Origin: a virus
Virus record (IMG/VR): IMGVR_UViG_3300017730_000076
Coordinates: 1 to 24,926 of that record
DNA length: 24,926 bases
Direction: 5' to 3' (one strand)
The notes below the pieces were generated by a model. It was not told the origin of the DNA and did not search any database. It saw nothing but the letters and a program-made list of their open reading frames with translations. Of the stretch, positions 227 through 15,569 are shown in pieces (the first letter of the stretch is position 1; each line of letters starts with the position of its first letter). A program made the translations under genes and the position numbers.

Positions 227-886
227 CTAGTCTTTGTTATCTTCTTCTAAGTTTCTAAGATCATAGTCGTACATACCTTCTTCATGTTCGTCTGTAATCC
301 ACTTAGCAGAATTTTCTACGGAATATATTTTATTACTAACCAATCTATTAATCAAGTTTTTATTTGGGTCAACTCCCATTGATGCATCAAACATTTTAAG
401 TCTATTATTAGGCTGTATAGCAAAATTTCCATCTTCTAATTCTAATACATGACCACATTTATGTTGGTCTGGTTTTTCTGCATAACCAAAATTTAACTCA
501 TTGAAGTCTCCTGCACACCAATCTATTGTAAATAAATACTTACCCTTACGTTTTACCTTACGTCTAGATGTATATTGCATGGTAGCACCTGCTAGTTCAT
601 AGAAAGTTGTAACACTTACATTGTAACTAAAGCTGTCCCACATAACTAATTCATCTAATGGTAATTCTTTTACTCCAGGTTTAGTACAGAAAGCTGAGAT
701 AGGTGCTCGCCACCATAGACCACCGTCTTCCATTAAGAAATGAAACATAGGTACTCTGTTTGGTATAGAACTAAAACCAAATACTCCTACTTCAAAATAT
801 TTATCGTGTGAATCTTTTTGGTCCCGTAAATAATTACCTCGGACACAACATTCTATTACTGGTATGTTTGCATTTAAATAAGCCAT
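227..886 (-). CDS. Conserved hypothetical protein, about 219 aa
   Basis: I prefer the ATG at 886-884 (MAYLNANIPVIEC...) to the upstream in-frame TTG at 907, because it forms a TAATG junction with the polymerase stop codon and has a purine-rich GGGGAGA about 13 bases upstream. The protein is soluble-looking, with several Cys residues (CC near residues 13-14), aromatic-rich segments such as GGLWWRAPISAFC, and an acidic C-terminus (EEGMYDYDLRNLEEDNKD). It resembles a family I associate with marine phage contigs, usually placed beside DNA polymerase, with no known function. The position suggests a role in replication or early host takeover, but that is inference only. Confidence 0.8.
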   Translation of the reverse strand: MAYLNANIPVIECCVRGNYLRDQKDSHDKYFEVGVFGFSSIPNRVPMFHFLMEDGGLWWRAPISAFCTKPGVKELPLDELVMWDSFSYNVSVTTFYELAGATMQYTSRRKVKRKGKYLFTIDWCAGDFNELNFGYAEKPDQHKCGHVLELEDGNFAIQPNNRLKMFDASMGVDPNKNLINRLVSNKIYSVENSAKWITDEHEEGMYDYDLRNLEEDNKD

Positions 887-2742
887 TAGTCGTAAATATC
901 TCCCCAAGTGTTTCCAGATTCATAGTCAACCTTATTAGGTACTGCAAGTGTAACAGCATTTTCCATGATCTCAATTATTTTTTTAGCGTGTTCTGGTGAC
1001 TCAACAGATATGTCAAGTTCATCATGAATTTGAATATGTGCTAAGATCCCTTCTTTGTAAAGATCTAACATACATTTTTTTGTCATATCTGCAGCTGATC
1101 CTTGTATTAATTTGTTTAATGCTTTGTAGGTGTATGCTCTTTTAATCCCTGGTCCATGTTCCCTTAATGCATCTTCATGAGACATAGCTTTATGCATACC
1201 GAAACTGTTTGGCTCCCATAGAGGAAATCTACATAGTCTACCAAGTAAAGTTCTTATCTGACCTCGCTCTTGAGATCTGTTAGAAGCACTATTCATTAAC
1301 TGTTTAACAAAAGGTACTTTTGCATGATACTGATCAAACAATTCCTTAGCACGAACTGAAGTCACACCAAGTTCTGCTTGTAATTTTGTTTTACCCATAC
1401 CATAAAACAATCCTAAGTTAATTGTCTTAGCTTGTGATCTAGGTATCTTTGCCATCTCTGCTACTGTCTTATGAAAGTCTGTACTTAAATCTTCTTGATA
1501 AGCATCGACTACATCGTAAACAGAAGGAAATTGATGTAAAGCTGCATAATGCACTACCAACCTAGGCTCTTGCTGAGAATAGTCAAAACAACCCCATGTA
1601 TGGTCCTTCTCGGGTATAAATAAAGACCTTATCATAGGACCTAGATCTTTGTTTCTAGCCGGAAGTTGTTGTAAATTTGGATTAGAATAACTAAACCTAC
1701 CAGTAACTGTACCACCTTGGTCGGATCTTATTTGATTTATATCTGCATGTATTCTACCTTTGTGTTCATATCTTATAATTGTATCAATAAATGTTGTGTG
1801 TGCTTTATTGATCTCTCTTGCTTGTGCAATTTTTTTTACTAATGGATGTTTGTGTTCTTGTAAAAAGTTTTTTGTAAAACTTGGCGCTTGAGTTTTTTCT
1901 GTGCGTTCGTAATCTAATTTTAATTTATCAAATATTTTAGCAATGTTTCTTGCAGCCCATATCTGAGGTTGTACTCCTGTTTCTTTTTCAATTTCTAATA
2001 ACAACTGTTCTTCCTTTGTTGCTAAATGAATCTTGGTTTGATTCGCTTTTTCAACGTCAACGCGAACTCCTTTAAATTTCATATCAACTAAACAAGGAAA
2101 CAAATCTGTTTCTAAATTAAATATATCTTCTATGTCTTGTTGAACTATTTCTCTTTTAAAAACTTGCCACAATTCCAATGTAAGCTGTGCATCTTTTTCT
2201 GCATACAATCCTACTTCTAATGCAGGCAGTTGCCACATGTCTGCTTTAGGATCTAACCCTCTTGACTTTGCAGCTTCGTTTAATGCAGTTTCATTTTTAC
2301 CATGTCCCAAATATTCCCAAGACAATGCATTTAAAGAATATTGAAATCTATTCTCATCTACCAGTGATGCAGCAATCATTGTATCTACGATTAAACCATT
2401 GATTTTTATACCTAAATTACGTATCCAACATACGTCATACATTGCATTATGAAATATTTTTGTAGACTGTGTTGACATCGTATCTGCAAACCATTTTAAA
2501 ACTCTTTTACGTTCCATGTTAGGCCCTGAGCCGTGAGCAATAGGAAAATAAAAAGCTTTGCCTGGTACAGCAACAGCAATACCTATAACTTCACCTTCGC
2601 CAATAACAGCACCAGATCCTTTTGTTTTTAAATTAGGATCTCTTGTTTCTAAGTCGACAGCTATCTCATCAACCTGTCTTAGATCAGGAAATTCTTTTGG
2701 CTCGACCCATTCTTTTTGAGTTTCAAATTTGGGTATTATCAT
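886..2742 (-). CDS. Family A DNA polymerase with 3'-5' exonuclease (PolA-like)
   Basis: This 618-aa replicative DNA polymerase has a complete proofreading domain: Exo I D30-L-E32, Exo II N99..Y102-D103 (FHNAMYDV), and Exo III Y180xxxD184. The polymerase domain shows motif A at D387-Y388 (DYSQQEPR), motif B at R435-S-Q-A-K439 followed by L443 and FYG 446-448, and motif C H573-D574-E575. There is no 5'-3' exonuclease domain, as usual for phage PolA. Motif B carries Leu443 at the position of E. coli Pol I Phe762, a variant known from virioplankton polymerases. The start ATG has an AAGGA Shine-Dalgarno 6-7 bases upstream and overlaps the end of a 55-aa gene. The stop codon overlaps the next start (TAATG). 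Confidence 0.97.
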   Translation of the reverse strand: MIIPKFETQKEWVEPKEFPDLRQVDEIAVDLETRDPNLKTKGSGAVIGEGEVIGIAVAVPGKAFYFPIAHGSGPNMERKRVLKWFADTMSTQSTKIFHNAMYDVCWIRNLGIKINGLIVDTMIAASLVDENRFQYSLNALSWEYLGHGKNETALNEAAKSRGLDPKADMWQLPALEVGLYAEKDAQLTLELWQVFKREIVQQDIEDIFNLETDLFPCLVDMKFKGVRVDVEKANQTKIHLATKEEQLLLEIEKETGVQPQIWAARNIAKIFDKLKLDYERTEKTQAPSFTKNFLQEHKHPLVKKIAQAREINKAHTTFIDTIIRYEHKGRIHADINQIRSDQGGTVTGRFSYSNPNLQQLPARNKDLGPMIRSLFIPEKDHTWGCFDYSQQEPRLVVHYAALHQFPSVYDVVDAYQEDLSTDFHKTVAEMAKIPRSQAKTINLGLFYGMGKTKLQAELGVTSVRAKELFDQYHAKVPFVKQLMNSASNRSQERGQIRTLLGRLCRFPLWEPNSFGMHKAMSHEDALREHGPGIKRAYTYKALNKLIQGSAADMTKKCMLDLYKEGILAHIQIHDELDISVESPEHAKKIIEIMENAVTLAVPNKVDYESGNTWGDIYD

Positions 2743-2890
2743 TTAATTCCTTTTTGTTATTGTAATAAATCATTCCAGGCTTTTCATACATAAGCAAACG
2801 TTTCTTCATTACTTGGTTTTCTCGATAAAGTTTATCTACTTTGTTATTTAAAGTTTCTATTTTTAATCTTAAGTTTAAAAATAAATTCAT
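2723..2890 (-). CDS. 55-aa coiled-coil protein, unknown function
   Basis: This short gene starts with ATG at 2890-2888, overlapping the TGA of the DUF3310 gene (ATGA), and ends with TGA at 2725-2723, inside the start of the polymerase gene in another frame (20-base overlap). The protein begins MNLFLNLRLKIETLNNKV. Residues about 7-34 form a heptad-like amphipathic helix rich in Leu, Lys, Asn and Glu, suggesting a coiled coil; a polar tail follows. It fills the only gap between DUF3310 and DNA polymerase, and both borders are coupled. A small oligomerisation or polymerase-accessory factor is possible but unproven. Confidence 0.65.
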   Translation of the reverse strand: MNLFLNLRLKIETLNNKVDKLYRENQVMKKRLLMYEKPGMIYYNNKKELNDNTQI

Positions 2891-3135
2891 TTCTTTTTAT
2901 TAGTGTCTTTCATTTTTTTAATTTCTAAATCACAATAGTGTTTTATTTTTTCTAGATCTTGTATACCACCTTTATACGGATAACGCATTACATATTTTAT
3001 TATGTTACCTTGAAAAAAAGTAAGTTCATTTTTTGAAATAAATTCATAAGGTTGAATGTGGTAGTGTTGATAGTGAGATCCACCTATTTGTTTATCTTGC
3101 GGAAATGCATCTTTAAAGATATCTTTGTTTGTCAT
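2887..3135 (-). CDS. DUF3310 family protein
   Basis: An 82-aa protein if started at ATG 3135-3133 (MTNKDIFKDAFPQ). This start forms an ATGA overlap with the helicase stop and has AGAAAGGA upstream, so I prefer it to the upstream start at 3213, which would add 26 residues inside the helicase gene. The hallmark DUF3310 pattern is clear: IGGSHY, then YEFI, FFQGNIIKYVMRY, and DLEKIKHYCDLEI. DUF3310 proteins are very common small phage proteins in replication or nucleotide-metabolism neighbourhoods. They are sometimes labelled nucleotide-kinase-like, but no biochemical role is established. The Lys-rich C-terminus (KKMKDTNKKK) could contact nucleic acid. Confidence 0.85.
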   Translation of the reverse strand: MTNKDIFKDAFPQDKQIGGSHYQHYHIQPYEFISKNELTFFQGNIIKYVMRYPYKGGIQDLEKIKHYCDLEIKKMKDTNKKK

Positions 3136-4640
3136 AAGTTGTAACCATTCCTTTCTTTTTTTGATTTTAATATATACAGGTTTTGTGCTGATCTGGTTAC
3201 ACCAACATACCAAACCCGGTGTTCTTCGTCTTGCTTTTCTATACTACTTGCTATAGAATCTCTTATTTTTTTAGCATTATCTAACACTAAAACTACGTTG
3301 TCACATTCACCACCTTTGGCTGCATGAATAGTCGATACTTGAATTCTTGGTTCCTTAGATAATTTTTCGTCCATAGTCAGCATATTTCTAATATAGAAAC
3401 ATTCTGCTTGATCTGCATTAGTAAATACTTCATACCAAGGCAAACCTTTTTTAAAATTTAAATCTTCCATTTTAATATCTTGTCCTAAGTTTTCATTAAA
3501 CTCTACGTTAAGATAATCAAATATATCTTTACAATCTGCTCTGTTAATACTTTCTCCTTTTGTAAGTCTTGTCCAGTTTAGAATAGTTCTAAACAACTTA
3601 GTATCAAAACTTTTACCAAACCTGTAATGATTGTAGTATAAATTAGATTCTTTTAATTTTTTACATATCTCTCCAACTCTATACGTTGTCCTAGCTAAAA
3701 TTAACCATTGTCCTTGCTGCAAGTTCAAGTTATCTAAAGAGTAAATAGATTCTGTGTAACCCTCTACAATTTTTTTAGTTTCTTTATTTATTTTTGGATA
3801 ATATATTTTTTCTTTTCTAAGACCTTGTATTCTATTTATAATAACACTAGACATTTCTTGAACTACCTTTGGTATTCTTTCTGATTGATCTAAAATAGTT
3901 TCTTCTGCAGGTTCTGTAATAAATCTATTTACATCTGCACCAGCCCAAGCAAAGATAGCTTGGTCATCATCACCTGCTAGATACATATCTTCAGTACATT
4001 CTTTTAAAGCATCGTACATCTGCCATTGAACTGGAGCTAGATCCTGAGCTTCATCAATAAAAATAGCTTTAAACTTTGGAATAATCAATTTTTCCTTGTT
4101 TTTAGCCACTAATTTAGTAATCATATCGGTATAATCTACGAGGTTACTACCTGTTTTAAAGTCCATAAAATACTTATAGATGTGTTGCAAGATAGGAAAA
4201 TCTATCTCACGACTCCATTCATTGGTATTGAACTCTTCCTCGATAGAAATGTCTTTGACTCTAGCCTTGTTTATTAATTTAAAATATTCATTGTCACAAT
4301 CCAGGTAACAAATTTCATCACTCTCAGTAAAATAATTTACTCTAATACTTAGATCTGTACCAATCTGTTCATAGTGTTCTGGTTGCATCACACCATCTTC
4401 ACTTAATCCTAAAGTGTGAAAAGCAAATGAATGTAAGGTTTGAAAATACTTTAAATCTTTTTTTTCTAAATGAGGATTATCTTTTAACATCCTACCTTGT
4501 GCTTCACCTGCAGCTTTTTTTGTAAATGCAAAGTAGCCTATTTGATTTAATGGTACTCCTTGTTTAATATATGAGTCTACAAATTTTAATAGTGTCCTTG
4601 TCTTACCTGTACCTGGTGGACCCAGTATTTTTTTAATCAT
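3132..4640 (-). CDS. UvrD/PcrA-like superfamily 1 DNA helicase
   Basis: A 502-aa ATP-dependent DNA helicase with the SF1A motif set: Walker A GPPGTGKT at 7-14, motif Ia-like region around 36-48 (GYFAFTKKAAGEA), QTLH near 67-70, Walker B DEAQD at 196-200, motif III GDDDQAIFAWAGA at 223-235, motif IV LARTTYR near 315-321, motif V STIHAAKGGE at 436-445, and motif VI VGVTRS at 479-484. It is shorter than bacterial UvrD (about 720 aa), with reduced 1B/2B insertions. It lies between the primase and polymerase genes, with a TAATG junction to the primase and an ATGA junction to DUF3310. It is therefore a good candidate for the phage's replicative or accessory helicase; no DnaB/gp4-type helicase is visible in the window. 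Confidence 0.95.
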   Translation of the reverse strand: MIKKILGPPGTGKTRTLLKFVDSYIKQGVPLNQIGYFAFTKKAAGEAQGRMLKDNPHLEKKDLKYFQTLHSFAFHTLGLSEDGVMQPEHYEQIGTDLSIRVNYFTESDEICYLDCDNEYFKLINKARVKDISIEEEFNTNEWSREIDFPILQHIYKYFMDFKTGSNLVDYTDMITKLVAKNKEKLIIPKFKAIFIDEAQDLAPVQWQMYDALKECTEDMYLAGDDDQAIFAWAGADVNRFITEPAEETILDQSERIPKVVQEMSSVIINRIQGLRKEKIYYPKINKETKKIVEGYTESIYSLDNLNLQQGQWLILARTTYRVGEICKKLKESNLYYNHYRFGKSFDTKLFRTILNWTRLTKGESINRADCKDIFDYLNVEFNENLGQDIKMEDLNFKKGLPWYEVFTNADQAECFYIRNMLTMDEKLSKEPRIQVSTIHAAKGGECDNVVLVLDNAKKIRDSIASSIEKQDEEHRVWYVGVTRSAQNLYILKSKKERNGYNL

Positions 4641-6256
4641 TAAAATATATCTTTCTTGTTTTTAAATGGTATCTTTTCTGTTACAATCTCGCCTTCTTTA
4701 TAATTACCTAAAGCAATCTCTACTACTTCTACAGGAGGATGATTAGTTTCTTCTCCATCTTTTTTAGGAAATCTTTTATTAACCGCAAACTTAGCATTAA
4801 ACAAACGCATCATCATCTCACCTGTTTTAGATTTATTCTCTTTCCATTCTTTGTTTCGTAAACTATCAAAAAAACTTTTGTATTTAAAGTACATCATGTC
4901 TTCTTCTACAAGAGTTGCACCTGTTCTAAACGATGCGTAGTTTGTAGCTTGTGGACCATTAACGTATTCTCTTAGATACTCTTCTAATAATTCTTCTGGT
5001 GTTGTTCCTTTAGGTGGTGTCGTTGTTTCTTTAGGCGGAAACAATGTATCCATAACTTCTTGAAACTGATCACCTTTTATTTTAGGTGGAATAAAACCTG
5101 CAGCATTACCAATGATACCTCTAATCTCATCTTGATTTATTATTTGTTTAATGTTTTTTGCTCTGACTTGTCTAGTAGTTTCTCCATCTGGTAGTACTAC
5201 ATTAAAAGTATATTCTGGTTCTGGATATGCAATCTTAACTAATCCAGATAAAACAGGGTAGTGTGTTTTCTTATCTGACATATAACCAAAGGCTCTTTTT
5301 CTACATTCAGCTTTCATACATACACTATGTATAGGATCTTCATTGCAAGTGTGGCCTTTGTTAGTACCTTTTTTCCATGCTCTAATTTTCTCTTCTACTT
5401 TTTTATCTCCCCACTCATTGTCATAAATAAAATTATTTCTAGCAAACTCCAATAATTTTTTCTCCCAACTATCTGAATATTTTTTTTTAGCAAATACCAT
5501 ATAGTTATATAAAACTCTGTCTCTACCATCTTTTAGTTTACTTTGTGTCAATAACTGCAAACAAGGAGGGCCGTCGACTAAATCTTCAGCACCTCCCTGT
5601 AGCAGATTTTTCACATGGGCTAGTGAAAACTCTTCTAATTGTTGTTTTGTAAATCTATTTGCATTTACAACTTTTATAAATTCTTCGTATGAAAACTCAG
5701 TGCCATCTAAATTTAATGCAACTCTTTCTTTTTTATTAAAGTATGGAATGTTTATAAACTGTCCATCAATAGGGTTACCTTCAGAGTCTAAACCTAGTTC
5801 TGTTTGTTTAGGGTAGATCTCTATTCCTGGTTTAAGATCTAAACTATATAATAAATTTTCTAAACACTCTCTTGCAAAAGTAGCTTTAACTTTTTCTGCA
5901 AAAAACATATAGATGTGTAATCCACCACTTTTAGATTTAACTGGTACTACAGGTAATTTATGTTTAGCAATAGCTTCTAAATATTTTTGATAGGGAAAAT
6001 TTGTATAGCTGTGTTCTTTGTCATCAATGTCGATTGCTCCAAAGCTAACCATACCTTCATCATCACAAGGTTGAATACCTATAGATGTTTTACCATTTAA
6101 ATGGTCTATATAATCTTGATCTGTAATTTCTTTTTTGGCCCAAGTGTAAACTGTCTTGAGTTTACCTTCGTTGTTATGTTTGCTACTACCTATGTCTTTG
6201 ATGTAGCCATAATTTCTTTCTAATCCGTTAAATATCTTTATAAAATCTTTTTCCAT
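4640..6256 (-). CDS. Archaeo-eukaryotic primase (AEP) superfamily protein
   Basis: A 538-aa protein from ATG 6256-6254 (MEKDFIKIFNG); an upstream in-frame TTG at 6286 lies in a strong hairpin and is unlikely. The AEP catalytic core is visible: metal-binding GAIDIDD with D76 and D78, then KSKSGGLHIY (S110...H114, the nucleotide-binding sxH-type motif), then GIEIYPKQ with acidic E146. H302, C304, H310, C313 and C318 form a probable zinc site. The C-terminal 120 residues contain TNYASFRTGATLVEED and an aromatic-rich helical segment resembling the helical C-terminal region of primase-helicase proteins. It should synthesise primers for the family A polymerase. No helicase Walker motifs are present in this chain; the helicase is the next gene. 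Confidence 0.85.
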   Translation of the reverse strand: MEKDFIKIFNGLERNYGYIKDIGSSKHNNEGKLKTVYTWAKKEITDQDYIDHLNGKTSIGIQPCDDEGMVSFGAIDIDDKEHSYTNFPYQKYLEAIAKHKLPVVPVKSKSGGLHIYMFFAEKVKATFARECLENLLYSLDLKPGIEIYPKQTELGLDSEGNPIDGQFINIPYFNKKERVALNLDGTEFSYEEFIKVVNANRFTKQQLEEFSLAHVKNLLQGGAEDLVDGPPCLQLLTQSKLKDGRDRVLYNYMVFAKKKYSDSWEKKLLEFARNNFIYDNEWGDKKVEEKIRAWKKGTNKGHTCNEDPIHSVCMKAECRKRAFGYMSDKKTHYPVLSGLVKIAYPEPEYTFNVVLPDGETTRQVRAKNIKQIINQDEIRGIIGNAAGFIPPKIKGDQFQEVMDTLFPPKETTTPPKGTTPEELLEEYLREYVNGPQATNYASFRTGATLVEEDMMYFKYKSFFDSLRNKEWKENKSKTGEMMMRLFNAKFAVNKRFPKKDGEETNHPPVEVVEIALGNYKEGEIVTEKIPFKNKKDIF

Positions 6257-6276
6257 TGTAACCCATGTTTGTGTAA

Positions 6277-6300
6277 GTGGGGGCAATTGCTTGCCCCCAC
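6277..6300 (-). other. Strong RNA hairpin, 10-bp perfect stem with GCAA tetraloop
   Basis: The minus-strand RNA would form GTGGGGGCAA-GCAA-TTGCCCCCAC, a perfect 10-bp stem capped by a GNRA-type tetraloop. It lies between the stop of the 272-aa gene (6308) and the ATG of the primase (6256), about 20 bases before that ATG. No T-tract follows on either strand, so it does not look like a standard intrinsic terminator. More likely it limits or punctuates transcription, blocks 3' exonucleases on the upstream message, or tunes primase translation. Confidence 0.8.
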
Positions 6301-6307
6301 CAGAAAA

Positions 6308-7126
6308 TTAAAAGTGTGCGCTAGTTTTTTCTGTAGTCGAAGCTGCGGTATCCCCATGCTTGACTTGAACGTCTCCTTTAGAGACACTTTCAGAAAAAGA
6401 TTTAGCTTGGTTGTATACTGCTGCATCAGCAATAGGTCCAACCTTACTTATTTCCCAACCAAACCACGTACCTTTATCGTTCGATTGTTGAACAGTTTTT
6501 AGCTTGTATACATGACTAAAAGAAGCTGGAGTGTATAGTTTTCCATTTGCTCCTTTAAGATTTATACTAGCCATCATACTGTTCCACTTTCTACTAATCT
6601 TTAATTGCGTTGATTTCATGGCAATTAAAGCAGTCGATGGGCTTGCACCATTTACTATTACAAAATGGCTTGCAGTTCTCTCGATGTAATTACCGTTAGG
6701 TAATCTATCTTTAAACCCTGCATCTCTTGTAGTTTGAGACATGATATCGCTAGAAGAAGAGTGTATATTCACTGGTGCTCCAGCGCCTTCTCCTCTATCT
6801 TGCCACTCTATGTATTCTAACTTATAGTGACATGGAACGACATCCACTCCGGTTACTCCATCAAACAATTCTCCTGTAACAGAGTTGTAAATCATGCCAG
6901 GTTCTGCACCTTCAACATACTTACCATCTCTCTTATTTACCTCTGGAGATAATTGTCCTAGGATCTTAAGAAAAGGTAGGGCTAGATCATCATGACCTAT
7001 ATTACCCAATCCTTTATCTGCGTCAGCCTCAAAGAGGCTAGTAGACAATGCACCTGCAGCAGCTTTTTCAGCTACCGCAGACTTTTTAGTTGCGCCGTTG
7101 TCCGTGTTTCGTTTTTCATTACTCAT
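6308..7126 (-). CDS. Putative single-stranded DNA-binding / replication accessory protein
   Basis: A 272-aa protein with a low-complexity N-terminus (Ala/Lys-rich, residues 1-35), then a conserved-looking core beginning DDLALPFLKILGQLSPEV, followed by GAEPGMIYNSVTGELF, VDVVPCHYKLEYIEW, KISRKWNSMM and GTWFGWEISKVGPI. I associate this core with phage proteins placed next to primase and helicase genes and often labelled ssDNA-binding, but I see no decisive OB-fold signature. The C-terminus is Ser/Thr-rich and ends in Phe (TSAHF) without the acidic tail of T7 gp2.5. A good Shine-Dalgarno, GAGGA, precedes ATG 7126. The strong hairpin just downstream suggests this gene is expressed differently from the primase. 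Confidence 0.7.
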   Translation of the reverse strand: MSNEKRNTDNGATKKSAVAEKAAAGALSTSLFEADADKGLGNIGHDDLALPFLKILGQLSPEVNKRDGKYVEGAEPGMIYNSVTGELFDGVTGVDVVPCHYKLEYIEWQDRGEGAGAPVNIHSSSSDIMSQTTRDAGFKDRLPNGNYIERTASHFVIVNGASPSTALIAMKSTQLKISRKWNSMMASINLKGANGKLYTPASFSHVYKLKTVQQSNDKGTWFGWEISKVGPIADAAVYNQAKSFSESVSKGDVQVKHGDTAASTTEKTSAHF

Positions 7127-7128
7127 GT

Positions 7129-7677
7129 TTATTTCCTCGTTATTTTGGTTCGGCTTCCTGCGAACACGTTAAATAGATCCGTGGGCATATCTTTTCCAGA
7201 CTCGATACGCTCACGAACCAATGCTTTTAGGGTCATAGGTTCAACCTTTAATTTCTGGACAGGTTGATAACCTTTACCTTGCGCAAGGACAGCGTATTCC
7301 ACTGCCTTGTTATCTTCGTTACGACCAAAGGAAACAGTAACCTCATTTTTAATAAGGTCACCCAAGCCGTTGTTTCGAAGCCAGTTAAATGCTTCTTCTT
7401 TTTTATCTGCTGTGATAGAAGCACCGTAGATAGGTTTCACTTCAACTGCGGAACCATCTGCTAATTTTAATGTTGATATGTTCATTTCCTGCATCATCGT
7501 AGGAATAACTTCACCAGAAATTAATTCTATATTCTTTTTTAATTTCTTAAGTTCGTCCTCTCTTGATGTCAACTCATCTTCTAAATTTTTTAATTTAGAA
7601 ACTTGAGCAGATAACAAATGAGCATCATCTGTTTTGTTTATATCTTCTTGTTTGTCTTGTTCAAAATTAATTGACAT
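7129..7677 (-). CDS. Hypothetical protein with N-terminal coiled coil
   Basis: An 182-aa protein. Residues about 20-55 are a clear charged coiled coil (SAQVSKLKNLEDELTS, then REDELKKLKKNIEL). The rest looks globular, with ISTLKLADGSAVEVKP, a segment DLIKNEVTVSFGRNED, and a basic C-terminus (GSRTKITRK). The layout of helix, small beta region and basic tail would suit a DNA- or partner-binding accessory factor, but I do not recognise the family well enough to name it. Two AAGGT elements precede ATG 7677. It ends 2 bases before the candidate ssDNA-binding gene, so the two are almost certainly co-transcribed. Confidence 0.8.
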   Translation of the reverse strand: MSINFEQDKQEDINKTDDAHLLSAQVSKLKNLEDELTSREDELKKLKKNIELISGEVIPTMMQEMNISTLKLADGSAVEVKPIYGASITADKKEEAFNWLRNNGLGDLIKNEVTVSFGRNEDNKAVEYAVLAQGKGYQPVQKLKVEPMTLKALVRERIESGKDMPTDLFNVFAGSRTKITRK

Positions 7678-7709
7678 ATTGTTTTACCTTTTTACCTTTC
7701 ATAATATCC

Positions 7710-7737
7710 TATATAATGCGTAATTTTTATTTGTCAA
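7710..7737 (-). promoter_or_regulatory. Candidate sigma70-type promoter for the replication operon
   Basis: On the minus strand, TTGACA (7737-7732, perfect -35) is followed by a 16-base spacer and TATATA (7715-7710, 4/6 match to -10). It overlaps the last codons of the 119-aa gene and would start transcription about 25-30 bases before the 182-aa gene. The AT-rich background weakens the evidence, but this is one of the larger gaps in the leftward operon. Confidence 0.4.
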
Positions 7738-8086
7738 ACATTATTTCTCCTCTTTCATATAAATCTATTTCAATAGGGTAATAAGTTTTTTCCTGTCTGT
7801 CCCATTTAAGTATGTTATATCTACCATTTGTAAGGTCTGCGACAATTGAGCACGCCACTCCAATTATGGCAGGATCTCCTGTTAATAACAAATAATCATC
7901 GGAAGTATAATTTTTTAAAAGTTTTCTTAGTTTAAACACTAAGGGACCTGGTGACAGAATAATTTGGGAAAATTCAGGCAACAATGTGACAATATCGCCA
8001 TATTTTGACGCACCCATAATATTAAATTTAGGTTCGCCTTTACTTGTTCCTGGTAGTTCTTGAATAACGTAAACTTTATTTTCCAT
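7727..8086 (-). CDS. Conserved hypothetical phage protein, 119 aa
   Basis: A 119-aa soluble protein starting MENKVYVIQELPGTS. It has a hydrophobic middle, QIILSPGPLVFKLRKLL, then LLLTGDPAIIGVACSIVADL, and ends NILKWDRQEKTYYPIEIDLY plus a short acidic tail. The pattern matches a small protein I associate with marine phage replication modules, but no function is known. It is the first gene of the leftward unit, starting at the divergent region shared with the SNF2-like helicase, which suggests early expression. A weak AGAAAG precedes the ATG at 8086. Confidence 0.8.
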   Translation of the reverse strand: MENKVYVIQELPGTSKGEPKFNIMGASKYGDIVTLLPEFSQIILSPGPLVFKLRKLLKNYTSDDYLLLTGDPAIIGVACSIVADLTNGRYNILKWDRQEKTYYPIEIDLYERGEIMFDK

Positions 8087-8096
8087 AACTTTCTAT

Positions 8097-8131
8097 TTGA
8101 CTTTCCTATATCATTAGAATACAAAAGTCAA
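8097..8131. promoter_or_regulatory. Divergent promoter region with 8-bp inverted repeat
   Basis: TTGACTTT at 8097-8104 is mirrored exactly by AAAGTCAA at 8124-8131, in the 65-base gap between two divergent genes. On the plus strand, TTGACT (8097-8102), a 17-base spacer and TACAAA (8120-8125) make a plausible promoter for the SNF2-like gene. On the minus strand, the other arm gives TTGACT (8131-8126), with TATAGG 15 bases further as a poor -10. The symmetry places the two -35 elements so that polymerases would compete, or it could be an operator. Confidence 0.4.
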
Positions 8132-8151
8132 CAGAAAGAAGAATTATAATT

Positions 8152-9585
8152 ATGAACTATAAATTTAAAACTAAGCCTTACGCACATCAATTAACTGCGT
8201 TAAAAAAATCTTGGGACAAAGAATGCTATGCTTATTTTATGGAAATGGGTACTGGTAAATCAAAAGTATTAATAGACAACATTGCTATGTTGTATGACAA
8301 AGGTAAAATAAATGGTGCTTTAATTGTAGCACCCAAAGGTGTAATTGGTACTTGGCATGCTAATGAATTACCTACACACTTGCCAACACACATTGATCAT
8401 AACACAGTTCTTTGGCAAGCAAATATTACTAAGACTCAACAAACAAAACTAGATACCTTATTTGAAACAGGTGAAAACTTACACGTTCTTATTATGAATG
8501 TAGAATCTTTTAGTACTAACAAAGGTCTTAAATTTGCAGCTAAATTTTTAAGTTGTCATAGGACCCTAATGGCTATTGATGAATCTACTACTATTAAAAA
8601 CCCAGAAGCTAAACGAACTAAGGCTATTGTTGCTTTAGGAAGAGAGGCAAAATTTAGACGTATTCTTACAGGATCTCCTGTAACAAAATCACCATTAGAT
8701 CTTTACAAACAATGTGAATTTTTGGGTGATGAACTATTAGATTTTAGTTCTTACTACGCATTTAGAACTAGATATGCAATTATGAAATCTGCTAACTTTG
8801 GTGGCAGGTCTGTACAAATTGTAGTAGGTTATAAAAACCTTGGTGAACTGTCTGACAAACTAGAAAAATTTTCATACCGGGTGTTGAAAGAAGATTGTTT
8901 AGATCTTCCTGACTATACTTTTATGAAAAGAATTGTTCAACTAACTCCAGAGCAAAGAAAAGTTTATGATCAAATGAAACGAATTGCTTTGGCTTCTATG
9001 GATAACAAAATGATGACTACTTCAACTGTGTTAGTACAGTTGATGCGACTTCATCAAATTACTTGTGGTCACTTTACTGCAGATGATGGCACTGTTAAAT
9101 TTATTAAGAACGAAAGAATTATAGCATTGATGGATATCCTTAAAGAAGTAGAAAACAAAGCTGTGATTTGGGCCCATTGGCGACATGATATTAAATCTAT
9201 TATTGAAGCTGTTGAAAAAGAGTATGGTAAAGACTCTTATGTTACTTACTATGGAGACACACCTCAAGAAGATAGACAAGATAATATTAAAAAAATGCAG
9301 GATCCCAATAGTCCTGTTAGATTTTTAATTGGTACTACTGCAACAGGTGGTTATGGTATTACACTTACTGAAGCCAACACTATGATTTATTATTCTAATG
9401 GTTATGACCTTGAGAAAAGAACTCAAAGTGAAGCTAGAATAAACAGAGCAGGTCAAAAAAGAAAAATGACTTACATAGATATCCTTGCAGAAGATACTGT
9501 TGATGCAAAGATTGTAAAAGCTTTGAGAAAAAAAATGAATATAGCTAATGAAATTATGGCAGAGGATTTTAAAGAATGGATTTAA
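8152..9585 (+). CDS. SNF2/SWI2-type superfamily 2 helicase (DEAD-like ATPase)
   Basis: A 477-aa SF2 ATPase with an N-terminal Q-motif-like YAHQLTAL, motif I EMGTGKSK (31-38), motif Ia IVAPKGVIGTW (58-68), motif II DEST (143-146; Ser-Thr replaces the usual Ala/Gly-His), motif III LTGSPVTKSPLDLY (172-185), motif IV VIWAHWRHDI (338-347), motif V GTTATGGYGITLTEA (394-408) and motif VI QSEARINRAGQ (425-435). These are SNF2-like proteins, which translocate on duplex DNA and often act in recombination, replication restart or removal of bound proteins. It is the only large plus-strand gene, with AGAAAGAAG upstream of its ATG. The next gene overlaps its end by 10 bases. Confidence 0.93.
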   Translation: MNYKFKTKPYAHQLTALKKSWDKECYAYFMEMGTGKSKVLIDNIAMLYDKGKINGALIVAPKGVIGTWHANELPTHLPTHIDHNTVLWQANITKTQQTKLDTLFETGENLHVLIMNVESFSTNKGLKFAAKFLSCHRTLMAIDESTTIKNPEAKRTKAIVALGREAKFRRILTGSPVTKSPLDLYKQCEFLGDELLDFSSYYAFRTRYAIMKSANFGGRSVQIVVGYKNLGELSDKLEKFSYRVLKEDCLDLPDYTFMKRIVQLTPEQRKVYDQMKRIALASMDNKMMTTSTVLVQLMRLHQITCGHFTADDGTVKFIKNERIIALMDILKEVENKAVIWAHWRHDIKSIIEAVEKEYGKDSYVTYYGDTPQEDRQDNIKKMQDPNSPVRFLIGTTATGGYGITLTEANTMIYYSNGYDLEKRTQSEARINRAGQKRKMTYIDILAEDTVDAKIVKALRKKMNIANEIMAEDFKEWI

Positions 9586-9782
9586 TAATATTAAATGATG
9601 GCTTGTATCAACTGATACCTGTAACAAAACAAATAATGGAAGGTATAGCCATAACAGCAGAAGTAGATTGTTTTGCTTTGTGTGATATTTTAAGACTTAA
9701 ATTATCTGGCTATGCTGATACCTTAAACTTGCATATAATGAAAGATGGCTCTGGTTATTTTATGGGCTGCATGTGTAATTAA
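9576..9782 (+). CDS. Hypothetical 68-aa protein downstream of the SNF2-like helicase
   Basis: A 68-aa protein starting at ATG 9576, inside the last codons of the helicase gene (10-base overlap, different frame), so probably translated by coupling. It begins MDLIILNDGLYQLIPV, has a central helical Cys-containing region (DCFALCDILRLKL) and ends DGSGYFMGCMCN. Four Cys residues, two close to the C-terminus, hint at metal binding, but the spacing fits no motif I know. Its TAA stop overlaps the TAA of the convergent decarboxylase gene in the palindrome TTAA. The family is unknown. Confidence 0.65.
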   Translation: MDLIILNDGLYQLIPVTKQIMEGIAITAEVDCFALCDILRLKLSGYADTLNLHIMKDGSGYFMGCMCN

Positions 9783-10156
9783 ATATCCTGGAGCCCTGTT
9801 TCACGATTAAGAAATTTGTATTCTATTTTCTGTATATTAAAATCTTCTTTTATTTTTTTACATATAGCTTCTACATCTAAATTACCGCAACTATAAACAT
9901 CAAATTGCATTAACGCTGGATTAATTTCATCCCAAATATGCATTGCTATGTGCGATGTTTCAATAATTGCAACTGCAGTAATGCCTCTGTTACCTTCCAT
10001 ATGACAATACTTAACATAAGGACCCATAAATATTTTCATATTAATAGACTCTACAAATTCTTTCATCCATTCTATTAATTGTTCTTCGTCGGTTGGTGGA
10101 GTTACAGCTTCAGCGCGCACAATTAAGTGCTTGTGTACCAGTAAACTGTTTTTCAT
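9779..10156 (-). CDS. speD: SpeD-family pyruvoyl-dependent decarboxylase (AdoMet decarboxylase-like)
   Basis: A 125-aa protein matching class 1b SpeD in length and motifs: N-terminal HKHLIVRAE, GNRGITAVAII, the processing region ETSHIAMHIWDE with Ser68 as the candidate pyruvoyl precursor, His73 five residues later, and Cys90 in DVYSCG. SpeD self-cleaves before the Ser to make a pyruvoyl cofactor and decarboxylates S-adenosylmethionine for spermidine synthesis. Two departures are visible: Thr67 replaces the usual Glu before the Ser, and HIWDE replaces HTWPE, with two extra residues before the Cys. Similar viral proteins exist, and some SpeD homologues are known to have become ornithine or arginine decarboxylases, so the substrate is uncertain. 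It starts with an ATGA overlap with the membrane protein gene. Confidence 0.88.
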   Translation of the reverse strand: MKNSLLVHKHLIVRAEAVTPPTDEEQLIEWMKEFVESINMKIFMGPYVKYCHMEGNRGITAVAIIETSHIAMHIWDEINPALMQFDVYSCGNLDVEAICKKIKEDFNIQKIEYKFLNRETGLQDI

Positions 10157-10347
10157 TGTAATGCTAAAGCAAAGATAACATAAGCCATACCACTGATTAA
10201 AGCGCCGACTGATACTAATAGAATACTTTCTACTCTATTAATTTGATGTTCTAATTTTAAAATTTTATCGTGAGTTTGTTTTTGCATTATTCTACAAAGT
10301 TTTTCGTGAGAATCTATTCTCTCTATTGCTGTATTTTTAGTAGCCAT
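10153..10347 (-). CDS. Small XhlA/holin-like membrane protein
   Basis: A 64-aa protein with a charged helical N-terminal two-thirds (residues about 8-42, including HEKLCRIMQKQ and KILKLEHQINRVES), then a single C-terminal membrane helix, ILLVSVGALISGMAYVIFAL. This layout of amphipathic helix plus tail membrane anchor is that of haemolysin XhlA-like and some holin-accessory proteins of phages, so a lysis role is plausible. No endolysin is visible beside it, so the assignment is tentative. It overlaps the end of the 310-aa gene by 11 bases and the start of the decarboxylase gene by 4 (ATGA). The Shine-Dalgarno, GGA, is inside the preceding coding sequence. Confidence 0.7.
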   Translation of the reverse strand: MATKNTAIERIDSHEKLCRIMQKQTHDKILKLEHQINRVESILLVSVGALISGMAYVIFALALQ

Positions 10348-11269
10348 ATGTGTTTATAATTCCTCCATTTGCCATTTGAGGTAATGGAAAGTATGTGTTA
10401 GCAAATTCTTCTATATTCATTCCTGTGCCTTCCTCTGCACCTGACTCTATAAACATTTTAGTTACCATAACCCGGTAGTTTGTATCACCACCAAGTTCAA
10501 AGTTTACTCTACCACCATCTGCACCATGAAAAGATTGACCATATGAAGCAGTTCCTTGACCACCTTTAGAAGTGTCTTTAGTACTACCAGTATTTTCAAA
10601 CCCACCTTCAGCACTATGCATTCCTCCATCATATGTACCACCTGCATCTGAAAGAGACGCTCCTCCACCAATGTATGTGCCACCACCGCCATTATTGTTG
10701 CTAGTATCTACATAACTATTTTCATTAGCATCTACACTAGTATCTCCAATAGTTGAATAGTCAAAACTAGGTGTAGTATTTTTTTTAAAAGGATTACCTA
10801 TATTAGAAATAGTATCTTTCCAATTTTGTGGAATACCTTCTGTAAAAGTTCCTTTAATAGAACCAGGTTTAAAGCCACCTGTTTCGTTTAGATCAAATTT
10901 ATCTCCAAAACCTAACGCCTCTAGTGCGTAAGCAAACGCAGGTTTAATATTTAAACCTAAATGATTAATATTTTTACCATCAATGGTTTGATAAAGTCCT
11001 GAAGTTGCATTTTTATATCCTGTAACTTCTGTTGGTACAAAGTCATATGCACCAACACCTCCTGTTTCAGTCCAGACATCTTTAGTAAAAGTTTTTTCTG
11101 TGTCTTTTAATAAGTTTCCAAACTTTCCAAAATCTCCTTGTGGTCCATCTCCGCCACCTTGTTGATATTGTTGTGGAACTATTACTTGTTTATTAGATAT
11201 AGATTCAATACCTTCGCCTGTTTCAGCGCCTTTGTTTTTATAGTATTGATATAATTCGTAAAATGTCAT
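10337..11269 (-). CDS. Probable virion/internal protein with a GGRVNF module
   Basis: A 310-aa, Gly/Thr/Ser/Asn-rich protein starting MTFYELYQYYKNKG. Residues about 185-250 are low complexity (NNNGGGGTYIGGGAS and similar), probably flexible. Residues 250-261 carry ADGGRVNFELGG, a variant of the GGRIG module found in the two neighbouring virion proteins. The C-terminal 60 residues look globular (MVTKMFIESGAEEG, NIEEFANTYFPLPQ) and end ANGGIINTYGY. The start codon forms a TAATG junction with the 1430-aa gene. Location among large virion genes suggests an internal or tail-associated protein; no enzymatic motif is seen. Confidence 0.75.
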   Translation of the reverse strand: MTFYELYQYYKNKGAETGEGIESISNKQVIVPQQYQQGGGDGPQGDFGKFGNLLKDTEKTFTKDVWTETGGVGAYDFVPTEVTGYKNATSGLYQTIDGKNINHLGLNIKPAFAYALEALGFGDKFDLNETGGFKPGSIKGTFTEGIPQNWKDTISNIGNPFKKNTTPSFDYSTIGDTSVDANENSYVDTSNNNGGGGTYIGGGASLSDAGGTYDGGMHSAEGGFENTGSTKDTSKGGQGTASYGQSFHGADGGRVNFELGGDTNYRVMVTKMFIESGAEEGTGMNIEEFANTYFPLPQMANGGIINTYGY

Positions 11270-14200
11270 TATGTTCTAAACGTTGTGTTACCAAATAAGG
11301 CCTCTTCTTTTTGAGCAGAGGACATTTTATTATATGGTATTCCATATAAAGATGCAATATTTGTTGAGTTATTTTGAGCTAATATAGGAAGTATCTGAGC
11401 TTGTCCTGCAGCCATTACATTTGTTGCAGGTAACGTAGCTTTTACTTGTTCAACTGGAGCTATGTTTGGAGCTACAGATGTATCTACTATTTCTCTAGAT
11501 TCCTCTACTCCTGGTGATAAAAGCTCATCTATAAATTGTTCTAATTCTTCTATAGATCTTCCTAATTCAAATTTTCTTAAATCTTTTTGACTGTCTTTAA
11601 AAATATCCATTACAATTTCGTTTTGGTCTTTAATTTCGTCAGCTTTAAAAGGATCTTCATCTTCTAATCTTTTTGCTAATTGTTCGAAGGCTTCAATACT
11701 ATAAGTCGGAGATTTAAACTCACCTCTCATTAAAGTTCTTGATTCAGTTTTAGTTAATCTGTTTTCTAAAATTTTTCTCAATTCCCTTGAACTAATACCT
11801 AATTCTTCTGCTGCATTTAATGTGTTAAACATTTGAGTTTGATTAGCATAGTTTTCTAATACATATTGTTTCCATGCAGCAATTTTATTTTCAGGTGAAG
11901 TTCTTGCTGAGTATGCTGTTTTAGCAAATTTACTTCTAATCAATCCTTTATCTTTTCCGTAAGAAGTTAATATAAAAGGCATACTAGATAGAGGTTTAGC
12001 ATCTTCTAATCTAACCCCTGACATCAAAGCTGCTATTTCAGCTGCACCATCTCTTTGAGTTCCGTAATCTGTAAATTTTCCAGTTGCACCTTCCCATACA
12101 CGTTGAGCACTAGTAACTGCTCCAGGTGTTAATCCACCAAAAATATGATTAATAGATTTTGCTAATTTAACATCTGGTGAGTCTTGTTCAAAATAAATTA
12201 CTTTACCTGTTCTTGTTTTACCGTTTCTACCCACAGGTAAAACATCTGTAACTCTTTCTGTACCAATTGATTCTGTAACAAATGGAGTAATAAATTCTGC
12301 AATAGCACCTTTTCTTTTTTGACCATCTCCACCAATTAGTTCACCAAATAAAGCATTGTATATAATCTCATTAGCAGTAGATTTATTTAAACTACCATCA
12401 GAGAAAGCACCTATCACAGCATTAACCGGAGCAACTAAAGTATCGTATGGATTTGAATATGAAAAATTATAATATTTAAAATTACCGTTTTCATCTGGAG
12501 AAGACATTGGTATTAACGTAGAATTTCTTTGATACGTCGGAGCAAAGTAAGTTTGAAAAGCTTCCATAGTTGCATCATCTACTCCCGTTACATATTGAGC
12601 TCCCTTTTTAACAGTATATCCAACACCACCAAGAACAGTCGAAAGACCTACCAATCTTCTCATTCCCATTTGTCTTATGTAAGGATTATTACTAGTCAAC
12701 TCTCTTGTACCAAGTGAAAATATATTGGATGAAGTTCTTAAAATTTCTGCAGGGAAAGCTATAAAGTTTCCTAAAGGTAAGTTTCTAATATTTTCAATTA
12801 ATTTTGGAACCTTACTATAGGTAGGAATTGTATTGGTAACTAAATACGCAGAAGCTTCTTCTAATGCTTCCAAAGGAGTTTTAGCAGCACCTGTAAAAGT
12901 ATTAATTTTTTCAAATCTACTACCTGTAACTGTTGTAAACCAATCATCTATGTTTCTAAAAAAAGCAGCTTGAGCAGCATCTTTTTTACTACCTGCAGGC
13001 ATCTTCATTAAGGCAGTTGCATCCATAGCACCGTTTCTAGAAAAAGCAGTTCCTAACGCACCTTGATAAAAATTATCTGAATAAATTTTCCAGTAGTTAT
13101 CAGCACCTTGATATACATCAGTTAGTTTTTTCATAGCAGGACTATTCATTAATCCTTGAAAATCAAGTTTACCATTCTTAGCAGACTCTAAAACTCTTCT
13201 CATTTCAGCTAAGTTAACGTTTTGATCAATAACTCCTCTTTCAATTAATCTTTCTATTCTAGCAATTCTTTCTATATCTGTTTTTGCTCCTGCAAATATA
13301 TCTTCACCTGTTAATCTCCAAGCATCTTTAAAACCAATTCGACCTCCTATTAATCCACTAGCCATAGGAAACATTGCTGCTGTTGTAAAGTTTCTTATTT
13401 GTGTCATAGGTGATAAAATTGTTTTAGATATTTGTGCACCTGCTTTTAGAGTCATTAAACCTTTATAAAAAGGAAGACTATATAAACCAGCGGTTGCTTC
13501 TTTAGCACCTACTAATGCATGAGCTAATTCTGGAGCAGCGTAATACTTACCGTTAAATAAATCACTTGTCATAACAAGATCAGAAAAATTTTCTTTACGC
13601 CCAATTTTAGATAAATCTACAAGTCTTGTTTTACTGCCCAATCTTGCCATAGCAGCAGCATCAAATATTGCTCCGTTTACATTGTCTCCAGTTCTTAAAC
13701 CTGCTTGTAAAATACCATCAAAAGCTTTCTTACCATACATTTGTTTTGATTGTTGAAGAGCTACATCTAGACCCGCATTAATTGCGCTCCAAGTTTTAAC
13801 GTCTTCAGTTATTAGTTTTCCAGAAGAATCTTTTATACCTCGTTTAGAAAGCTCTACACCTGTTCTACCTTTTTCAACAGACAACATTCTTTTTACTGCA
13901 TCAGGTAGATCTTCTCCTTTAAAAGCTCTTAACGGTTCGCCTTTAGTTTTTTCTGTAACATTCCACATTTTATTTAATTCGTTGAATGCAAACTCAGGGC
14001 TTTCTGCTCCAGATATAACTTTTTGTTTGTATGCTAACATATCTCTTTTAGCAAATTTATCTAATGCTTGTTCATAAGCATCGTCATAAACTTTTCCTGA
14101 AGTAGCTCCTTTAGCTATTTTAACAGCTTCTTGTCTGACTGCAGCTAACACATCTTTGTCACCTGTTTTAATTATATTTTTAAATTCTTTAATAGCATTT

Positions 14201-15561: not shown

Positions 15562-15569
15562 TTAGACTC

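Follow-up and report, generated by a model that had tools for sequence, protein, structure and literature searches.

The 24,926-nt virus record IMGVR_UViG_3300017730_000076, analysed here over its full length (the window, a genome fragment of a marine bacterial virus), encodes a compact cassette of five genes running from an archaeo-eukaryotic primase (AEP) through a superfamily 1A (SF1A) helicase to a family A DNA polymerase (PolA). The helicases that drive replication in cells, and in most phages, form hexameric rings. We favour, with some reservation, the view that this cassette is a self-contained phage replisome core, in which the AEP and the SF1A enzyme form a two-subunit helicase–primase replacing DnaG–DnaB, gp4, or an AEP paired with a superfamily 3 (SF3) helicase. 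Whether it also typifies a widely distributed class of tailed phages, whose forks would be opened not by a ring but by a compact SF1A motor of predicted 3′→5′ polarity coupled to the AEP via the C-terminal domain of the primase, we regard as an even call. The SF1 enzyme probably opens the fork, supported by four lines of evidence, all computational: the absence of a ring helicase, the mutual exclusion with SF3 helicases, the co-occurrence of SF1 with the primase, and a split primase domain. The cassette consists of:

4640–6256, minus strand: AEP primase, 538 residues from ATG (AEP-TOTE, PF22548, E = 1.1e-14; primase family PHROG 21866, 1.8e-119)
3132–4640, minus strand: SF1A UvrD/Rep/PcrA-like helicase, 502 residues (UvrD-helicase, PF00580, 1.8e-28; phrog_1967, 7.1e-79)
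2887–3135, minus strand: DUF3310 protein, 82 residues from ATG (Pfam DUF3310, PF11753, E 4.2e-12, or 2.2e-12 in a second search)
2723–2890, minus strand: 55-residue protein, possibly a coiled coil, poorly conserved
886–2742, minus strand: family A DNA polymerase with 3′-5′ exonuclease, 618 residues (DNA_pol_A, PF00476, 2.1e-66; PF01612, 5.1e-13)

All five genes lie on the minus strand. As read from the sequence, the primase/SF1 junction is TAATG with a 1-nt overlap, the SF1/DUF3310 and DUF3310/55-residue junctions are both ATGA, and the 55-residue open reading frame (ORF) overlaps PolA by 20 nt. The mechanical ORF of the primase starts at a TTG (6286) ahead of the ATG at 6256, and the DUF3310 entry in the ORF list likewise starts at an upstream TTG (3213). 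An earlier note made from the letters alone (the original prediction) had described five genes linked by TAATG, ATGA, or overlap and headed by a primase of the archaeo-eukaryotic type. The linkage was borne out by these junctions, and the primase type by its AEP-TOTE match, AEP fold, and invariant motifs. The range given there, 2723–6256, omitted PolA except for 20 nt, as well as the SNF2, gp32, gp33, and gp34 genes at 6308–9585. From its recurrence in relatives, the real module is larger: SNF2, gp32, gp33, gp34, the AEP primase, and SF1 recur together in varying order, in most cases with PolA. The additional members in the window are:

6308–7126, minus strand: gp34, Pam3_Gp34 family, 272 residues (PF23977, 7.2e-69)
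7129–7677, minus strand: gp33, DUF7307, Pam3 gp33-like (PF23984, 1.4e-36)
7727–8086, minus strand: gp32, Pam3_gp32-like (PF23992, 2.8e-31)
8152–9585, plus strand: SNF2-type superfamily 2 (SF2) ATPase, 477 residues, divergently transcribed (PF00176, 3.6e-22; phrog_62, 1.4e-113)

Near DNA matches among phage records were limited to 023Pt_psg01 (over 8% of the window) and Pelagibacter phage HTVC027P (over 6%), and the window is therefore, by sequence, a relative of the HTVC023P-type pelagiphages. Consistent with this placement, it carries the PolA, SNF2, primase, and common gene order of that type.

At least 598 IMG/VR stretches encode a relative of the window primase. We examined a first set of 80 loci found with the window primase (L005–L084), a second set of 80 found with the primase of DSL-LC04, and 15 further loci found with the primases of Pan1 and K21lambda1; the second set and these 15 make up the 95 loci L107–L201. 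SF1 follows the primase in all 80 first-set loci, far beyond chance; the 1-nt overlap of the window recurs in 66, and 10 have an additional 624–690 nt between the two genes. Where at least 3 kb was available downstream of the primase, the first set showed both SF1 and DUF3310 in 45 of 45 loci, and where 5 kb was available, PolA in 22 of 22; the second set showed SF1 in 75 of 75 loci with 3 kb downstream and PolA in 69 of 69. Upstream, counting only loci with at least 1.5 kb (gp34), 2.5 kb (gp33), 3 kb (gp32), or 5 kb (SNF2), every eligible locus carried the gene in question, in the first set (gp34 44/44, gp33 30/30, gp32 28/28, SNF2 18/18) and in the second (69/69, 64/64, 64/64, and 51/51, respectively). 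SF1 was not seen in seven of the 95 loci L107–L201, of which five are short contigs and not decisive; in the other two, L199 and L201, SF1 lies elsewhere on the contig. The 15 further loci and the named phages showed other orders, namely primase–SNF2–gp32–gp33–gp34–SF1–PolA and SNF2–gp32–gp33–gp34–primase–SF1. The retention of the members despite a changed order is good evidence, at the level of gene content, for a functional unit, and the recurrence of the gene order in relatives, which the original prediction had named as a test, held in both large sets and in named phages.

A search of 50,697 phage records returned 24 with a primase match and 68 with an SF1 match, and the 24 primase records were the top 24 SF1 records among the best 60 of those 68 (R5C is present twice). 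These records are related rather than independent samples, and hence no probability is given. They include pelagiphages, phages of Acinetobacter, Klebsiella, Pseudomonas, and Salmonella, Kokobel2, DSL-LC04, ct3Et533, Pan1, and Dinoroseobacter phages. HTVC027P, unlike the window, has an extra gene between the primase and SF1 (gp05, L001:3493-4200), which gave only a sub-cut-off glycosyltransferase trace. An 85-residue protein (phrog_13182, no known function) was also noted between primase and SF1 at L087:9509-9766, with relatives in 55 of the 95 loci L107–L201.

The window PolA carries the motif KTINLGLFYG, with Leu at what we take to be E. coli position 762, and this Leu762 recurs in 122 of 133 relatives' PolA ORFs longer than 500 residues (one has Phe and ten fall outside the pattern). 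Among five primer-extending Leu762 viral PolAs, strand displacement has been measured in two, and separation of the strands by the polymerase itself has been proposed for SNF2-bearing viruses (PMC9069017). A strand-displacing Leu762 PolA might thus open the fork in the window phage as well, leaving SF1 as an accessory or repair helicase and SNF2 as a translocase. We consider this unlikely, given that SF1 was present in every locus reaching far enough in both sets (45/45 and 75/75) and is tied to the primase gene, with a gene other than polA next after SF1 in ct3Et533, Pan1, and R5C.

We searched for a ring helicase in 28 whole records containing both AEP and SF1 (AEP+SF1 records; 11 named phages and 17 IMG/VR records), all of which carry the SF1 family. 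The DnaB_C model had no match at E ≤ 1 in any of the 28 and none over cut-off in 49 further IMG/VR records, where one sub-cut-off trace of 11.3 bits was found (G022); the combined 0 of 77 counts R5C twice and includes fragments, which carry little weight. All three controls were matched (the T4-like HTVC008M, HMO-2011, and T7 gp4), and the model therefore detects the gp4 type. The result is clear-cut for the nearest isolates and circular records, five in number (HTVC027P, HTVC023P, 023Pt_psg01, DSL-LC04, and ct3Et533), none of which matched DnaB_C. The finding that would have refuted the original prediction, a DnaB or gp4 gene elsewhere, did not turn up in relatives, complete genomes among them, with the window's own genome searched as a fragment; the statement in that prediction that SF1 and SNF2-type enzymes are the only visible helicases stands for this window, itself incomplete. 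Among the 44 SF1 records lacking a primase match, four were examined; DnaB_C was found in DAC16 and MTATph1, where SF1 is therefore probably accessory, and was not found in the Thermus phage Riverbug and the Meiothermus phage MMP7.

That a diverged ring helicase lies unrecognised among the hypothetical genes strikes us as highly improbable. Many genes are unannotated, the G022 trace exists, and a Pfam scan covering 46 of 87 proteins from HTVC027P (a batch that excluded the SNF2 gene) returned several general AAA families that are not assigned to a protein. Against this, the DnaB_C model finds the T7, T4-like, and HMO-2011 helicases, UvrD was the sole named helicase family in the HTVC027P scan (among the 25 of 27 families in the main table), and five of six AAA models also match the window SF1. 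AAA_25 was over cut-off in two control phages only, with sub-cut-off traces mostly at the SF1 gene and others in Pan1 (two) and R5C.

Recruitment of host DnaB is known from temperate phages, lambda among them. In an equivalent arrangement in the present phages, a phage protein (gp32 or gp33, for example) would bring in host DnaB, with SF1 as a Rep-like accessory motor. Infection by HTVC027P raises host dnaE, dnaN, dnaQ, dnaX, and dnaG transcripts (PMC12753301), and host DnaB could serve. We nevertheless find this arrangement distinctly unlikely: the primase is of the AEP type and not the DnaG type that partners DnaB, virus genomes that encode a polymerase have been found to encode a helicase as well (Kazlauskas 2016, cited in PMC6302109), and the HTVC027P Pfam scan returned no loader family, loaders not having been searched by name. 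DNAG_N was matched in none of 15 AEP+SF1 records, a weak test in which T7 had no match and the other two controls matched below cut-off only.

A comparison with phages that carry an SF3 helicase bears on both SF1 and SNF2. A tblastn search with gp34 matched 504 phage records, and five gp34 phages that are absent from the primase set of 24 were chosen, PB1 by accession and four (MTx, Carpasina, JSF39, and PaMx11) out of the tblastn list. An SF3 helicase was over cut-off in all five, as VapE in PB1, MTx, Carpasina, and JSF39, and as DUF5906 in PaMx11. In the 15 AEP+SF1 records tested, neither VapE nor DUF5906 was over cut-off (one sub-cut-off trace of 14.5 bits, in Pan1). RepB_primase is encoded by a gene of its own in PB1 and Carpasina, while PaMx11 combines RepB_primase and DUF5906 in one protein. 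The SF1A profile found no match in complete PB1 or in the sequence read of MTx, Carpasina, JSF39, and PaMx11; the PaMx11 helicase labelled UvrD and the Dda-like helicase of Carpasina are Pif1/Dda-type. SNF2, gp33, and gp34 were present in all five SF3 phages, with gp32 detectable in three (not in PB1 or MTx). Judged by these profiles, the ring-type helicase and SF1A swap for each other while SNF2, gp33, and gp34 stay. As SNF2 occurs in both AEP+SF1 and SF3 phages, it does not follow the loss of the ring helicase; SF1A does.

This pattern disfavours the SNF2-type SF2 enzyme as the replicative helicase with SF1 as its accessory, which we regard as very unlikely. SNF2 was present in all 15 AEP+SF1 records tested, and gp32–gp34 lie near it in most loci that are long enough; yet it is equally present in the five SF3 phages and had no match in Riverbug and MMP7, and SNF2 proteins are described as translocases without strand separation (PMC9069017).

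Further support for coupling of the SF1 enzyme to a primase came from Riverbug and MMP7, two phages of thermophiles that were selected because they have SF1. Neither had a match to DnaB_C, SNF2 phrog_62, VapE, or DUF5906. In both, the frame just upstream of SF1 matches only the C-terminal part of the window primase family (L100:3980-4990 and L101:3737-4765 in the Riverbug and MMP7 loci, respectively). A profile of this C-terminal domain matched at E 9.3e-12 in Riverbug and 4.1e-9 in MMP7, with no match when 22,582 ORF entries (a few loci being entered twice) were searched in reverse as decoys, and the AEP-domain profile had no match at these frames. The Riverbug frame overlaps SF1, and its match starts ahead of the annotated gene start, which has probably been set too late. 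The C-terminal-domain gene of MMP7 is separated from SF1 by a small annotated ORF (225 nt), and the gene that precedes it, annotated DUF3987, encodes an AEP from a different family (Prim-Pol, PF09250). For the gene preceding the domain in Riverbug, PriCT_1 left just a trace below cut-off, and an AEP was not recognised there. The PHROG profiles provided weak independent support for MMP7 (phrog_21866, profile 368–488, E 0.0052) and none for Riverbug. A plasmid search with the MMP7 protein found nothing, and a phage search with the Riverbug protein found Riverbug only. Given this stand-alone C-terminal domain beside SF1, we read the domain as a primase–helicase coupler; its distribution suggests that it belongs with the helicase and couples SF1 to whichever AEP is present. 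In the window primase, this domain is the last of three:

5606–6256, minus strand: AEP catalytic domain, residues 1–217, with invariant D76, D78, S110/G112/H114, and E146/P149
5252–5605, minus strand: PriCT-1-like domain, residues 218–335, with four invariant cysteines
4640–5251, minus strand: primase C-terminal domain, residues 336–538, a candidate helicase-coupling domain

The catalytic motifs D76/D78, S110-x-G112-x-H114, and E146 are invariant in 32 of 32 aligned primases, the third acidic residue being Glu, and AEP-TOTE was matched by all 32 (E up to 1). The model of residues 1–217 aligned with the domain of the CRISPR-associated Prim-Pol (CAPP; 7nqf) at Z 19.5 with a root-mean-square deviation of 3.2 over 194 residues, and CAPP was also the sole significant match of the primase sequence profile against solved structures. 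By motifs and modelled fold, the primase belongs to the AEP superfamily, and primer synthesis is predicted. In the second domain, C232, C304, C313, and C318 are invariant in 26 of 26 primases and, in a wider alignment, in 32 of 32, making this region a candidate metal or Fe-S site, and CAPP has a similar cysteine-bearing PriCT region (PMC8211822). A PriL-like Fe-S domain is a conceivable alternative for this region; Pfam favours PriCT_1 (12 of 32 relatives at E up to 1, best 0.0011), and the fold search barely covered the stretch. Residues 419–525, within the C-terminal domain, are modelled as winged-helix-like, with a middling similarity to 5vfx (Z 8.6 over 89 residues).

The closest solved relatives of the window helicase are Rep, UvrD, and PcrA (Rep, 1uaa, E 6.4e-14), and it is therefore assigned on sequence to SF1A, the UvrD/Rep/PcrA type, and not to the Pif1-like SF1B of herpesviruses. 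The motifs GPPGTGKT, IDEAQD, HxxKGxE, and VGxTR are invariant in 21 of 21 SF1 sequences, and both UvrD-helicase and UvrD_C are over the Pfam cut-off in the window protein. Its two blocks aligned with Rep are separated by 168 residues, compared to 269 in Rep (~100 fewer), and hence the 2B subdomain, which lies between motifs III and V, has probably shrunk or been lost. Rep without 2B is activated as a monomer; by analogy, a 2B-reduced SF1 would suit a stand-alone fork motor. The 3′→5′ polarity is predicted from the family.

The two small proteins between SF1 and PolA had been proposed as adaptors of this machine, a role not supported by their distribution or by the likeness of DUF3310 to a T7 protein. 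Residues 122–184 of the T7 gp1.7 nucleotide kinase match the DUF3310 family at 4.5e-23; DUF3310 is the C-terminal domain of gp1.7, and the window copy is this domain alone (82 residues, compared to 196 in full gp1.7). It was found in only three of 33 second-set loci with at least 9 kb downstream. The 55-residue ORF, which gave sub-cut-off matches to coiled-coil or leucine-zipper models, was detected in eight of 80 first-set loci, with other small ORFs at that place elsewhere.

Upstream of the primase, gp34 is a predicted oligonucleotide-binding (OB) fold protein and a candidate single-strand DNA-binding protein. Its model (pLDDT 75.1) has strands and helices in an order compatible with an OB fold, and OB-fold proteins made up most of the best VIA-align rows: 9teh_I, a phiC31 integrase–RDF fusion (Z 8.2), BRCA2 (6.1), the RB69 single-stranded DNA-binding protein (SSB; 4.9), RPA (4.3), and SsbB (4.3), values below 8 being middling. 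Foldseek returned no row under E 0.001 (best 0.048, to an unrelated fold), and the gp34 sequence profile had no match to solved structures up to E 10. Bacterial SSB (PF00436) was found in none of 25 phage records, an absence that says little, as all lack it. Some gp34 relatives (L187, L188, and L189) end in DDDIPF or DEEIPF, while the window gp34 ends in SAHF. Tips of the DDDIPF/DEEIPF kind resemble that of bacterial SSB. The gp34 relative of Bhz20 is split over two frames (L089:17254-18157), one part of which is annotated as a primase, probably in error.

The spacer between gp34 and the primase holds a further feature:

6276–6301, minus strand: RNA hairpin with an 11-bp stem (one G-U) and a GCAA loop, in the gp34–primase spacer

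The hairpin, GGTGGGGGCAA-GCAA-TTGCCCCCACT (minus strand, 6301→6276), lies in a 57-nt spacer that folds at -21.6 kcal/mol. The 65-nt stretch that starts at the gp34 stop codon had a mean fold z of −2.75 over 122 distinct relatives, with 48% under −3, compared to means between −0.33 and +0.12 where gp33, SF1, primase, and PolA end. Perfect stems of at least 7 bp occur in 58 of these relatives with 36 different arm sequences, the structure being kept while the sequence changed. GNRA occupies 50 of 69 four-base loops, a bias that points to RNA. Given that a T-run is absent after it (mean 1.9 T in 8), it is not, by sequence, a classical terminator, and Rfam had no match in the window at gathering scores. 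As a guess, the hairpin may set a 3′ end or stabilise the gp34 mRNA.

Taken together, the proposal that a UvrD-like enzyme is the replicative helicase draws on the ring-helicase absence, the SF3 exclusion, and the split domain, whereas the opening of the fork is, like the physical contact, the polarity, the binding of single-stranded DNA by gp34, and the task of the hairpin, something that we infer. The eukaryotic CMG helicase moves 3′→5′ on the leading-strand template. In our proposed working, the compact Rep/UvrD-like motor would likewise move 3′→5′ on the leading-strand template and open the fork, with the primase held to SF1 by its own C-terminal domain and laying primers on the exposed lagging-strand template. 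The Leu762 polymerase would extend both strands, and its own strand displacement may help. The OB-fold protein gp34 would coat or chaperone single-stranded DNA, SNF2 may strip proteins off duplex DNA, either in front of the fork or away from it, and the hairpin after gp34 could let gp34 be made separately from a scarce primase–helicase.

Several points weigh against this SF1-driven fork. UvrD-type motors are less processive than rings (PMC6302109), and the host transcripts raised by HTVC027P and the strand-displacing Leu762 PolAs, both noted above, would each allow another source of unwinding. A ring helicase too diverged for the Pfam models may exist, and many of the IMG/VR records are fragments (those searched include contigs of 57-89 kb, of unstated completeness). 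Adjacency is not universal, as SF1 lies ~39 kb from the primase in L201. The SF3 group comprises five chosen phages, compared to 504 records with gp34 matches, and the Prim-Pol gene of MMP7 partly matches the helicase family phrog_256 (residues 198-294 of 347, E 2.1e-5). Finally, gp34 is accompanied by a further SSB family in Bhz20 and K21lambda1, which weakens the case for gp34 as the sole SSB.

Other observations concern PolA and the neighbouring genes. NCBIfam gave sub-cut-off names only; its best match for PolA was the model of the 2-aminoadenine polymerase DpoZ, at 340.5 bits compared to a cut-off of 500. Some of the Acinetobacter, Klebsiella, Pseudomonas, and Salmonella phages of the primase set carry adenylosuccinate-synthetase-like genes, and phages with such genes (Bhz20, K21lambda1, and PSA28) share the replication module. 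The gene after PolA (window 227-907) matches phrog_3704, called ferredoxin, and no Pfam family; its counterparts in HTVC027P (L001:8172-8819) and 023Pt_psg01 are annotated PurM, the HTVC027P protein has no Pfam match, and the names conflict. Beyond the module, the window encodes an S-adenosylmethionine decarboxylase, a host-type metabolic gene (9779-10156, minus strand; PF02675, 8.9e-18). A GGRIGY/F-type peptide motif recurs in four large ORFs at 10337-20562 on the minus strand (three, one, one, and one times) and is also found in a few ORFs of HTVC027P and 023Pt_psg01.

The combination of PolA, UvrD, and SNF2 has been known since 2018, when a Leu762 Group II PolA with UvrD-like and SNF2-like helicases was reported as a common virioplankton replisome and non-ring helicases were discussed (Nasko et al. 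2018, PMC6302109). The window has the same PolA residue class and the same helicase pair, and probably belongs to the same kind of phage. The available part of that account mentions no AEP primase, gp32–gp34, or SF3 swap, and ties the set to temperate life and not to a helicase–primase unit. Pairing of an AEP with SF1A as a phage helicase–primase is apparently unreported, no description having been found in a literature drawn mostly from outside subscription papers. Among the pelagiphages, the HTVC023P-type core counts helicases and DNA polymerase, with the primase used as a tree marker (PMC9599517). HTVC023P, HTVC027P, and 023Pt_psg01 share the order of the window (gp34, primase, SF1, DUF3310 region, PolA), with SNF2 near the other record end. 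Primase identity to the window is 47.1% for HTVC027P and, over part of the protein, 26.4% and 27.4% for the other two.

If the proposed pairing is true, phages would have a third kind of helicase–primase in addition to DnaG/DnaB-gp4 and AEP–SF3, one that parallels herpesvirus UL5/UL52 independently. Genomes of ~60 kb would then be copied by a single-chain SF1A motor with an AEP primase, and the need of a ring for fast forks would fail beyond herpesviruses. The gp32, gp33, and gp34 families and one primase domain would become testable replisome parts, and AEP–SF1 and AEP–SF3, beside the same SNF2, gp33, and gp34, would be exchangeable modules for asking what a fork helicase requires.

The PB1 and PaMx11 modules resemble that of the window in their SNF2, gp33, and gp34 relatives (gp32 in PaMx11, not detected in PB1) and in having an AEP, of the RepB_primase type; they differ in their SF3 helicase (VapE or DUF5906), with no SF1A match in the sequence read. 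CAPP, the closest solved AEP domain to the window primase, shares a PriCT region with cysteines (PMC8211822) but has tetratricopeptide (TPR) repeats and a CRISPR context, whereas the window primase sits in a phage replication operon. No ring helicase is known from the herpesvirus UL5–UL52(–UL8) system. There, the SF1 helicase UL5 works with the AEP UL52 at the fork as a helicase–primase, a parallel to the phage pair by description. The herpesvirus enzyme, modelled on Pif1, moves 5′→3′ (PMC8187027), whereas the phage SF1 is Rep/UvrD-like and predicted to move 3′→5′.

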